This document shows positions 13,871-17,088 of a stretch of DNA of 47,359 nucleotides, one piece after another (within the stretch, counting starts at the first letter, position 1; each line of letters starts with the position of its first letter). The stretch lies in contig JACRLB010000033.1 in NCBI GenBank assembly GCA_016235445.1, positions 1-47,359 on the forward strand, given 5' to 3'. The stretch comes from Chloroflexota bacterium. GTDB lineage: Bacteria; Chloroflexota; Anaerolineae; Anaerolineales; Villigracilaceae. The position numbers and the translations under genes were made by a program. The notes beneath the pieces were generated by a model. It was given only the letters and a program-made list of their open reading frames with translations, was not told the origin of the DNA and made no database searches.

Positions 13871-14473
13871 ATGAACAGATCCCATTTCGATTCTTCCCAT
13901 CGCCTGCCCAAAGAAAAAGGCCAGGGTCTGGCGGAATACGCAATCTTGATCGCCATCATTGGCGTGCTCACGATCTTTGGGTTGGTGCTTGTGGGCGGGT
14001 CGGTTCAGGGAGGGTTTATCAAAGTCTGCGCCGCATTGGGCAATGAAGGCTGTCAGGCCATCGAAACTGAAACCGTTGTTGCAGGTACCACCACCCCCAC
14101 ACAGCAGGTTTCTGCAACCCCTTCCATGATCCCCACTGCCACCGCAACATTATCGGAGCCTGAGCCTACCCGCCCGCCCAGTGTCCCTCGACTGACCCCC
14201 GAACCCACCCCTGCCAGAGAATTAATAACCATGAGAATCAAAGTGGTCATCAATGAAAAGGGCGGCGGGAAAAATTCCCCGGCAGGAATACGAGTGGTGA
14301 TCTATAATGCCGCAGGCGAATACGTCGCCGAAGGCGTAACGGATGAAAAAGGAAACCTGTCTTTATCAGTGCCGAGAGGAAGTTATACCGTCGCCACTTT
14401 TTATAACAACGTTTGGAAACAAAATGGCCCATTCATGGTGACGAATTCAAGAGAGAACGTCATTCATCGTTAA
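13871..14473 (+). CDS. Flp-type pilin-like protein with C-terminal CNA-B/CarboxypepD_reg-like domain
   Basis: The 200-residue product has a class III prepilin signature: a charged leader ending KEKGQ, then GLAEYAILIAIIGVLTIFG, a hydrophobic helix at about residues 18-40. Cleavage by prepilin peptidase would follow the Gly before QGLAEY. After a Thr/Pro-rich linker (residues 75-115) comes a domain like Cna-B or carboxypeptidase-regulatory domains (GIRVVIYNAAGEYVAEGVTD, GSYTVATFYNN). A pilin-like membrane anchor on an adhesin-like domain is not the usual 50-70 residue Flp pilin. It forms an operon with the TPR gene. Confidence 0.7.
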   Translation: MNRSHFDSSHRLPKEKGQGLAEYAILIAIIGVLTIFGLVLVGGSVQGGFIKVCAALGNEGCQAIETETVVAGTTTPTQQVSATPSMIPTATATLSEPEPTRPPSVPRLTPEPTPARELITMRIKVVINEKGGGKNSPAGIRVVIYNAAGEYVAEGVTDEKGNLSLSVPRGSYTVATFYNNVWKQNGPFMVTNSRENVIHR

Positions 14474-14625: not shown

Positions 14626-16938
14626 TTATTTGAACTTAAAGTTTGCTCGATGATACGTACCATCATTTAGCTTGATGACTAATGTACGGCAAGTGCCTGC
14701 CCAAGCTTTGTTTGTTTTCCACACATAGGTATATTGACCTGTAGTTGTATTGTAGGAGAGGCTGCTTGAACCAGCTGTAACAGTTTCCTCTATCACATCC
14801 TCAGCAGTTGTTCCACATGCCACGGAAGTGGAAGCTGGGTAACCTATAGGGAAGATGTTCAAACCCTGATCTCCAGCTAATTTGAATTTCACCGGTATAG
14901 CTCTCCCCGCATTGACGATATTTAGCGTGGGAAGATTGTCTACTGGTTGAAAGAAGCCTGTGAAGGGGTAAGGAATTTGCTCGGCGACTACAAAGGGGGA
15001 GAGGCTGTTGACTTCACCACAAATCACGCGAGTATTTCCACCGACGACATTGTAATTGTAGTAAGTCCATTGTGTATCTGAAAGTTCGCTTCCATCGGCA
15101 GAAAGCGTCGCAACTATTGAGCCATCCCACTTGACTTCAAGAAGATTATCCAGAACACTTGGGCGAGGAGAAAAGGCAAGACTAAGGGTGTAGACCTGTC
15201 CCGGCATAGTTAAAATATCCTGAGATATACCAATTGGTGGACCAGAGTCTAATTCTACATACTGCTCACCGTCAGCAGCCGCATAATTATTCCACAGTCT
15301 TTGTATTTCAATCCCAGAGCCATAAGTTGAACTCCAACCAAGGATTGAAGGTTCTACTGCCCAACCTCCGGAAGAGACAATGGGTTGCTCGAAGCTACCG
15401 TTAACTATAATATTTTGGGAAGGGGTAGATAAAGAGGCGACACTGATGTTGTCGATTAATGTGCCAACTGAATCTGGTGCGCCGCGATCCCCCAACTCCA
15501 AACGCGTTATGCTTTGTGGATTGGCAGAAGAAGTAATGTCAACCCATACGTTATTCTCATAATGCATTAACCGTATGTTATTTGGGTTGCTGTACTGAGC
15601 AGGATTATAAGGAACACAGACTGTAACTGGTGATGAATAAATAGCTGTTGTTTCGATGTCGTAATAGTTTGGGGGATTTCCAAGGGTGAATCCAGCAGGC
15701 AATGCTAGACCTTCACTATCCGTAGTTACAGTTGTGATGCCAGAGAAAGAAACATTAGGAAATGTTAAAGACGTTCCATTTGGTGCTATTTTTATATTAT
15801 CTCCTGAAGGGGTATTGTTTGAAATTACCACATTGGCCGTGGCAGTTCCTACATCTCCATCATTGTCAATCACCGATAAGTTGATTGTGTAAAATCCTTC
15901 TGCATACCGGTGAGAGATAACTATTGGACTCACAACTGACCCAATGGAATCTGAGTTTCCATCGCCCCAGTCAACACTGGCAGTAGTGTGATTACCAAGC
16001 AACCCAGGATCACTAAAATTTCCCTGTAAAATTACTTCTCCACCATTTGTAGTGATTTGATCTATATAAACTGAAGGGGGCACATTTGACACATACACAT
16101 TTAGTGTAGTGAACTCCGTCTCATTTTCATTATTAATAACTGTGACGGTAACTACAAATACCCCGTTATCATAGGTGTGATTTCCGCCTAATATCTTGTC
16201 TGGTACACCCGGGCGGGCAGAGTAAGCAAAGCGTAAGAGATAAATATTACCGGGTATAGTGGAAATATCCTGAAATATGCCACTTGATGAATAAGAGTCC
16301 AATTCAACGTATTGTTCTCCGTCAGCAGCTGAGTAGTTGCTCCATAGCCGCTGGACTTCAATGCCAGAACCATAGGACAAACTCCAACCAGTTATGGATG
16401 ATTCCACACTGAAACCGGGTGAGATATCTGGCTGCTCGAAGCTGCCGTTAATGGCCAGATTTGATAATGTATCTGACAATGCAACAACACTAACATCATC
16501 AATAAATGTGCCGAATGAATCTGATAAGCCTCGATCACCAAACTCAATTCGTGTTGTTGTCTGTGTTGCCATCAGACTATATTCGTAATATATCCATAGT
16601 GGGTCTGTGAGTTGTGTTCCGTCTGCGGAAAGTGATGAAACGACAGAATCGTCCCACTTAACTTCAAGTAAATTTCCCGAATTAATCGAGAGTTGTTCGG
16701 TAGCGGATCCATCTCCATAGTCAATTGTCGCGATCCAGCTAGTACCAATCGGGTCATTAAAACTTCCTGAAAAGGATACGATTTCACCTTCATTGATGTG
16801 AATATCCTGCCCCATATTAAGAACGAATCCTTGGGCATATGCCAGAATCGTTGGTGACAACTGAAGCATCAATGCTAGGATGATGCATAGTCGAATCACG
16901 ACGAAGAACGATTTGGTTGAAATTGATTTTGTGTTCAT
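14626..16938 (-). CDS. secreted PKD / DUF642-like / PxKF domain protein
   Basis: The 770-residue product starts MNTKSISTKSFFVVIRLCI with GGAGG 5 bases upstream and has a signal peptide ending near LAYAQG. It then has a PKD domain (IDYGDGSATEQL ... HTYDNGVFVVTVTV), a second PKD domain (VDWGDGNSDSIG ... ISHRYAEGFYTI) and a region ending VICGEVNSLSPFVVAE. The C-terminus has the PxKF signature (GRAIPVKFKLAGDQGLN, YVWKTNKAWAGTC). Two DUF642-like jelly-roll domains are embedded, one inside the first PKD domain and one before VICGEV, and both are circularly permuted (see findings). Base composition is clearly more AT-rich than the neighbours, suggesting transfer. Its promoter at 17060-17088 and a possible structured leader precede it. 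Confidence 0.75.
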   Translation of the reverse strand: MNTKSISTKSFFVVIRLCIILALMLQLSPTILAYAQGFVLNMGQDIHINEGEIVSFSGSFNDPIGTSWIATIDYGDGSATEQLSINSGNLLEVKWDDSVVSSLSADGTQLTDPLWIYYEYSLMATQTTTRIEFGDRGLSDSFGTFIDDVSVVALSDTLSNLAINGSFEQPDISPGFSVESSITGWSLSYGSGIEVQRLWSNYSAADGEQYVELDSYSSSGIFQDISTIPGNIYLLRFAYSARPGVPDKILGGNHTYDNGVFVVTVTVINNENETEFTTLNVYVSNVPPSVYIDQITTNGGEVILQGNFSDPGLLGNHTTASVDWGDGNSDSIGSVVSPIVISHRYAEGFYTINLSVIDNDGDVGTATANVVISNNTPSGDNIKIAPNGTSLTFPNVSFSGITTVTTDSEGLALPAGFTLGNPPNYYDIETTAIYSSPVTVCVPYNPAQYSNPNNIRLMHYENNVWVDITSSANPQSITRLELGDRGAPDSVGTLIDNISVASLSTPSQNIIVNGSFEQPIVSSGGWAVEPSILGWSSTYGSGIEIQRLWNNYAAADGEQYVELDSGPPIGISQDILTMPGQVYTLSLAFSPRPSVLDNLLEVKWDGSIVATLSADGSELSDTQWTYYNYNVVGGNTRVICGEVNSLSPFVVAEQIPYPFTGFFQPVDNLPTLNIVNAGRAIPVKFKLAGDQGLNIFPIGYPASTSVACGTTAEDVIEETVTAGSSSLSYNTTTGQYTYVWKTNKAWAGTCRTLVIKLNDGTYHRANFKFK

Positions 16939-17059: not shown

Positions 17060-17088
17060 AGTATATCACCAACCTCAAACAGAATCAA
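17060..17088 (-). promoter_or_regulatory. promoter of the PxKF gene
   Basis: On the minus strand TTGATT (17088-17083), a 17-bp spacer and TATACT (17065-17060) match the vegetative consensus. Transcription would start near 17053, about 115 bases before the ATG. The -35 box lies against the terminator of gcvPB. Confidence 0.65.

Follow-up and report, generated by a model that had tools for sequence, protein, structure and literature searches.

Two different circular permutations of a choice-of-anchor-C-like unit inside two host domains of a single bacterial gene

How does a whole protein domain come to lie inside another domain with its second part in front of its first, and how could this happen at two different points of rotation in a single gene? 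The question is raised by a gene on the reverse strand (14626..16938) of a 47,359-nucleotide stretch of Chloroflexota DNA, called the window here. The gene encodes a protein of 770 residues, P0001, starting at an ATG at 16938 (in the list of open reading frames its start is placed further upstream, at a TTG at 17088) and ending with a stop codon at 14626-14628. P0001 consists of a PKD domain, a second PKD domain, an unnamed domain and a PxKF domain, plus two full-length units that resemble choice-of-anchor C and DUF642 domains. Because its N-terminal hydrophobic stretch resembles a Sec signal peptide by eye, the protein is probably secreted. The second PKD domain (15826..16083, reverse strand, residues 286-371; PF18911) is uninterrupted, and the C-terminal PxKF domain (14629..14961, reverse strand, residues 660-770) matches NF038114 with 148.5 bits, above the cut-off of 35.

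A circularly permuted unit is expected to present its second part first, with nothing doubled or lost. This is what we observed in both inserts, although with different cuts. Insert 1 (16198..16674, reverse strand, 159 codons) starts with NLLEVKW, ends with RPGVPD and contains the end-to-start seam DDVSVVALSDTLSNLAINGSFE. Insert 2, when its limits are taken as 15034..15513 (reverse strand, 160 codons), starts with SITRLELGDRG, ends with YNVVGGN and contains the end-to-start seam DNISVASLSTPSQNIIVNGSFE. The unit is therefore cut before NLLEVKW in the one and before SITRLEL in the other. Rotation was assessed with a model built on copies from outside the window. Unrotated, insert 1 scored 88.2 bits in its best stretch; with the NGSFE end placed first, it reached 150.6 bits. 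For insert 2 (160-codon limits) the score rose from 113.3 bits for the best stretch to 141.2 bits; each rotated unit matched the whole model. Likewise, all positions (1-157 of 157) of the NCBI model for choice-of-anchor C, TIGR04362, were covered by each insert only once rotated, with 68.1 and 48.9 bits compared to 59.4 and 40.9 bits unrotated. Since these scores are below the curated cut-off of 120 bits, the inserts are best described as related to choice-of-anchor C rather than filed as members. The original prediction had proposed two whole units of different rotation inside host domains, and rotation indeed restores one full-length match for each. Its label for them, DUF642-like, is loose: against DUF642 (PF04862; gathering cut-off 27) the whole protein reached 26.1 bits and insert 1 alone 21.5, and insert 2 alone gave no match. 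When both inserts are rotated, 95 of 160 aligned columns are identical, and the single gap lies away from both cuts.

A domain insertion is expected to leave a host domain that resumes beyond the insert and that runs without a break in relatives. Both were found for the first PKD domain and for the unnamed domain, hereafter host domain 2. The first PKD domain is split into a first part at 16675..16830 (reverse strand, residues 37-88) and a second part at 16081..16197 (reverse strand, residues 248-286, KILGGNHTYDNG...). Against PKD_4, with a cut-off of 27, the first part alone reached 22.5 bits and the two parts joined reached 31.6; the second part alone gave no PKD match. The GDG-to-H spacing of the joined domain is 17, as in the uninterrupted PKD domain of a relative from the same genus (L025), although this spacing varies among PKD domains (of eight measured, three have 10, three have 14, and L025 and L108 have 17). 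The empty site is spanned by alignments of eight loci, with gaps near the site in most of them.

Host domain 2 is likewise split into 15514..15816 (reverse strand, residues 375-475, NTPSGDN...SSANPQ) and 14977..15033 (reverse strand, residues 636-654, TRVICGEVNSLSPFVVAEQ). It has no match, and hence no name, in Pfam, and is a candidate for an unnamed domain family. The domain is uninterrupted in four relatives (L107, L145, L146 and L147), and L107 is 44% identical to P0001 over 242 alignment columns, running from host domain 2 through PxKF without interruption. Closing up host domain 2 at the 160-codon limits of insert 2 gives a W-to-CG spacing of 14. The same spacing was found in L107, L146 and the second copy in L145, and in L147 it is 14 before TG; with a spacing of 17 in the first copy of L145, four of five uninterrupted copies thus have 14. 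The continuation of both host domains past the inserts, which had been read from the sequence alone, is therefore borne out by the joined PKD score and by this spacing, and the uninterrupted relatives that it called for exist for each of them. The reading frame, also as proposed, stays open across all four insert/host junctions. The pattern NTPSG...YYDI.TTA.Y...W.D.T..CG..SLSPFVVA recurs among relatives of host domain 2, twice per frame in L145 and L149, and PxKF follows host domain 2 both in the window and in L107.

The places first given for the inserts proved right, while their limits shifted. Insert 1 had been put at about 16196-16675 (160 codons) and is now placed at 16198-16674 (159 codons). 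For insert 2, about 15034-15507 (158 codons) had been proposed, and an end at 15513 fits better. With 158 codons, the insert is two residues short relative to insert 1 and the host domain two residues long, with a W-to-CG spacing of 16. Adding the residues SI makes host and unit exact, raises the rotated match from 135.2 to 141.2 bits and removes the two-residue gap against insert 1. We therefore place insert 2 at 15034-15513, a boundary set by alignment alone, and regard the 158-codon boundary, with its fewer bits, its gap and its host spacing, as a less likely alternative. With the best-fitting boundaries, both insertions appear to be length-exact: no host residue is lost or doubled and no unit residue is missing. 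The bases shared between circle and target would then be AA (two bases) at insert 1, as originally noted, and A (one base) at insert 2. A longer overlap claimed for insert 2, ACNCG, vanishes with the better boundary and is probably a coincidental likeness of two codon pairs for TR. Bases at the junctions may have been altered since insertion, and no sign of a target-site duplication was seen there.

Relatives of the unit are expected to show which order is natural to the family. Outside the P0001 gene, 148 loci yielded 103 matches, representing 88 distinct units. In this census, which is biased toward the natural order because most loci came from natural-order queries, 79 of the 88 units (30 of them viral) are full length and in natural order, nine are partial and none looks permuted. 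An earlier scan gave 83 matches and 76 distinct units, with 74 at full length in natural order. Among the partial units, five have a unit start upstream (by eye) and three are pieces of one L099 unit, in natural order and in shifted frames; the start of the L044 unit was not recognized. The family was found in 17 of 301 genomes of the phylum, this genome included. Each of the 18 matches in genomes other than this one forms a single stretch, and 13 cover positions 3-156 or more. Of the five that cover less, our own model finds three to be complete and in natural order, and two have the start upstream (by eye). Only in the window's gene was a wrong-order split seen among the 301 genomes. Similarly, at least 80% of a natural-order query was covered by 14 of 16 plasmid records, compared to none of five for a rotated query. 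In this genome, we found no further copy, permuted or unpermuted (the original prediction had suggested looking for unpermuted ones), and no donor array or circle.

Phage records searched for the domain gave no match. Two scans of viral contigs detected no domain, and two others gave proteins with one domain each, in natural order; a scan with the PKD stretch returned ten loci, and one with host domain 2 returned nothing. The 30 distinct natural-order units on viral contigs (L049-L083) lie in frames of about 193-265 residues, and the four viral units placed in the tree described below group together. In Pseudovibrio flavus (L090), a 2868-residue frame contains three choice-of-anchor-C-like units that follow one another at intervals of 546 and 539 residues, forming a large module repeat.

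A unit that entered in natural order would leave no junction between its own end and its own start. Each insert holds such an end-to-start seam, so that there was a precursor with units joined head to tail, either a tandem array or a circle. The seams of inserts 1 and 2, compared by length alone, are equal. Adjacent units of this domain were found in L100 and L031, and the L100 units, from a Methylococcaceae MAG, form a genuine tandem pair whose seam is shorter by one residue. A tree of 50 units groups insert 1 with insert 2 as sisters (support 98/85); their branches measure 0.21 and 0.35, compared to 0.51 and 0.33 for the L100 pair. Identical units entered this tree once, matches of fewer than 140 model positions were dropped, and 31 of 35 viral loci were excluded to limit their number rather than for measured likeness. 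A comparison of the two inserts gives a dN of 0.28 and a dS of 2.15. Because dS is near saturation, both inserts look old, and they look to have been kept by purifying selection.

Rotated units are expected to fold if their cuts avoid secondary structure elements. A predicted structure of the natural-order relative L084 (pLDDT 95.7) places cut 1 between residues 90 and 91, within a loop (82-92), and cut 2 between residues 129 and 130, within a turn (127-130). Since both cuts lie in loops between strands, rotated units would be able to fold, and we infer that their ends are close in space. In a model of the first PKD domain with insert 1, computed from an alignment of 15 rows that included the L100 tandem pair, the strands of the insert follow one another in rotated order. 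Only the insert was modeled confidently (ten-residue means of 65-95), in contrast to the host part. A 46-row alignment of split relatives was dropped for modeling, since MAFFT had misaligned it. Foldseek returned nothing at E < 0.001 for the model of PKD domain and insert, probably because the host part is poorly modeled. The L084 model, however, resembles the carbohydrate-binding modules CBM4, 16, 35 and 61 (best E-values of 5e-6 to 1e-5; TM-scores by query length of about 0.5-0.67). With a sequence identity of just 13-21%, this is a predicted likeness at the level of the fold, and the inserts were presumably retained for sugar binding.

The gene lies beside glycine-cleavage genes, of which gcvPB and gcvPA were identified by eye and GCV_H through Pfam. 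Six relatives were fetched downstream of gcvPB; one was too short, and in none of the five testable relatives, each reaching at least 5.6 kb downstream of gcvPB, was a P0001 gene found beside it. Matches to P0001 in the other 300 genomes of the order were partial at most, and no intermediate with one insert was found. The P0001 gene is accessory. Its third-position GC is low throughout (0.31-0.43 across the parts of the gene, compared to 0.54-0.71 in four neighbors), which, with its absence beside gcvPB in all five relatives, suggests that the gene was probably gained horizontally or belongs to a class with fast turnover. No clear difference in third-position GC separates inserts from host parts, and since the low value is gene-wide, composition does not date the inserts. 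A neighboring 200-residue frame (13871-14473) without a match in Pfam starts like a Flp-type pilin by eye (GQGLAEYAILIAIIGV), followed by a linker rich in Pro and Thr and by a C-terminal domain.

How, then, might the two units have arrived? We propose, giving it an even chance, that circles of one unit each, derived from a tandem array, were integrated twice with next to no homology, and that the hosts closed up around rotated units that could fold. A probably secreted surface protein (PKD, PKD, an unnamed beta domain and PxKF) would have gained two units in two events, each gain adding one complete CBM-like beta-sandwich unit inside a host domain. Both units would stem from a precursor in which the end of the unit was already fused to its start, whether in a tandem array or in a one-unit circle. 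Recombination between neighboring units of an array would set a one-unit circle free, and the circle would join the chromosome with two shared bases at one site and one at the other, opened at a different point each time. The outcome would be exactly one whole rotated unit in an intact host. We prefer a circle because this outcome follows wherever it opens. The original prediction had likewise proposed that a small circle integrated twice, and the rotations, whole units, exact ends and seams, together with continuous hosts and the sister relation of the inserts, fit this proposal. The circle, its source and the separateness of the two events we infer, as neither a donor nor an intermediate was found. 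The mechanism is plausible and sharper than its rivals, and the exactness may be partly due to selection for complete folds.

Several other routes could lead to the same arrangement. A linear piece of an array, or a template switch into one, could have entered at many lengths, with selection for folding keeping whole units; no circle would be required. This capture would account for both seam and rotation, L100 shows such a tandem pair, and selection would retain cuts that, like these, fall within loops. Small gains or losses of residues in loops, however, should be tolerated by selection, yet both sites are exact with the best boundaries, and template switching alone does not return to the same host base; we consider this route unlikely. 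A natural-order unit could instead have entered each host loop, duplicated in tandem and lost its outer halves. Duplication followed by trimming is the classic route to circular permutation (PMC3320104), and the adjacent units in L100 and L031 speak for it. However, it needs one duplication and two trims at each site, with matching trim points and unchanged host length; neither site holds a remnant of a second unit, and seams matching in length would need to have formed on two occasions. We regard it as unlikely.

The sister relation, the equal seams and the shared gene would also be expected if one insert derived from the other, through a circle excised at one site and reintegrated at the second. 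Such an event would be old, since 65 of 160 columns differ and dS approaches saturation; the tree separates the two L100 units by no less than the two inserts, and the first insert would still require a head-to-tail precursor, so that this origin seems distinctly doubtful. In favor of an assembly or binning artefact, the assembly consists of 55 contigs, and the window lies on contig 22. The inserts, however, have no exact word longer than 11 bases in common, which is short for a misjoin and makes misassembly unlikely. Insert and host share words of at most 10 and 9 bases; at one of the four junctions a spanning word of 10 bases occurs again in the window, and at the other three no word of 10 or more does. 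With all junctions in frame and both host domains closing up, an artefact is very improbable. Still less credible, to the point of being negligible, is that the rotated limits are natural to the family: nothing was found in its favor, and the census, drawn mostly from natural-order queries, the phylum matches and the plasmid records all speak against it.

Permuted units within host proteins have precedents. Swaposin, the plant-specific insert of plant aspartic proteinases, is a saposin in circularly permuted form, and its relatives occur as repeats in prosaposin (PMC3320104). The likeness to P0001 is that a permuted unit lies in a host protein. Swaposin, however, represents one permutation in plant proteinases, whereas P0001 has two permutations of one unit, both exact, in one bacterial gene, and, unlike swaposin, these sit in two different host domains. 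In the RNA polymerase beta' subunit, many lineage-specific insertions are HABAS domains, which occur in three topologies related through circular permutation (PMC11515920). HABAS domains form a small four-stranded sheet, and their topologies are spread across different proteins; in P0001, a single gene carries both permutations, and the units are plainly related in sequence. A survey of domain insertions describes inserted domains that can be permuted as well (PMC13114784). Term searches of the open-access literature returned no account of the P0001 gene or of circle integration as an origin of permuted inserted domains. Permuted inserted domains are thus already known; what is new, within the literature searched, is two different residue-exact rotations in one gene.

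These observations touch two old questions, the origin of domains nested within domains and the origin of circular permutants, for which the usual answer is duplication followed by trimming. Two residue-exact rotations with equal seams favor a head-to-tail precursor opened at random. More generally, and tentatively, at a little less than an even chance, one-unit circles shed by tandem-repeat genes may integrate nearly without homology and give bacteria a working route for placing whole domains within other domains, P0001 recording two such events. If this is true, a genome-wide survey should find permuted inserted domains to be exact in both unit and host far more often than under trimming, and random opening of circles would account for the circular permutation of inserted domains.
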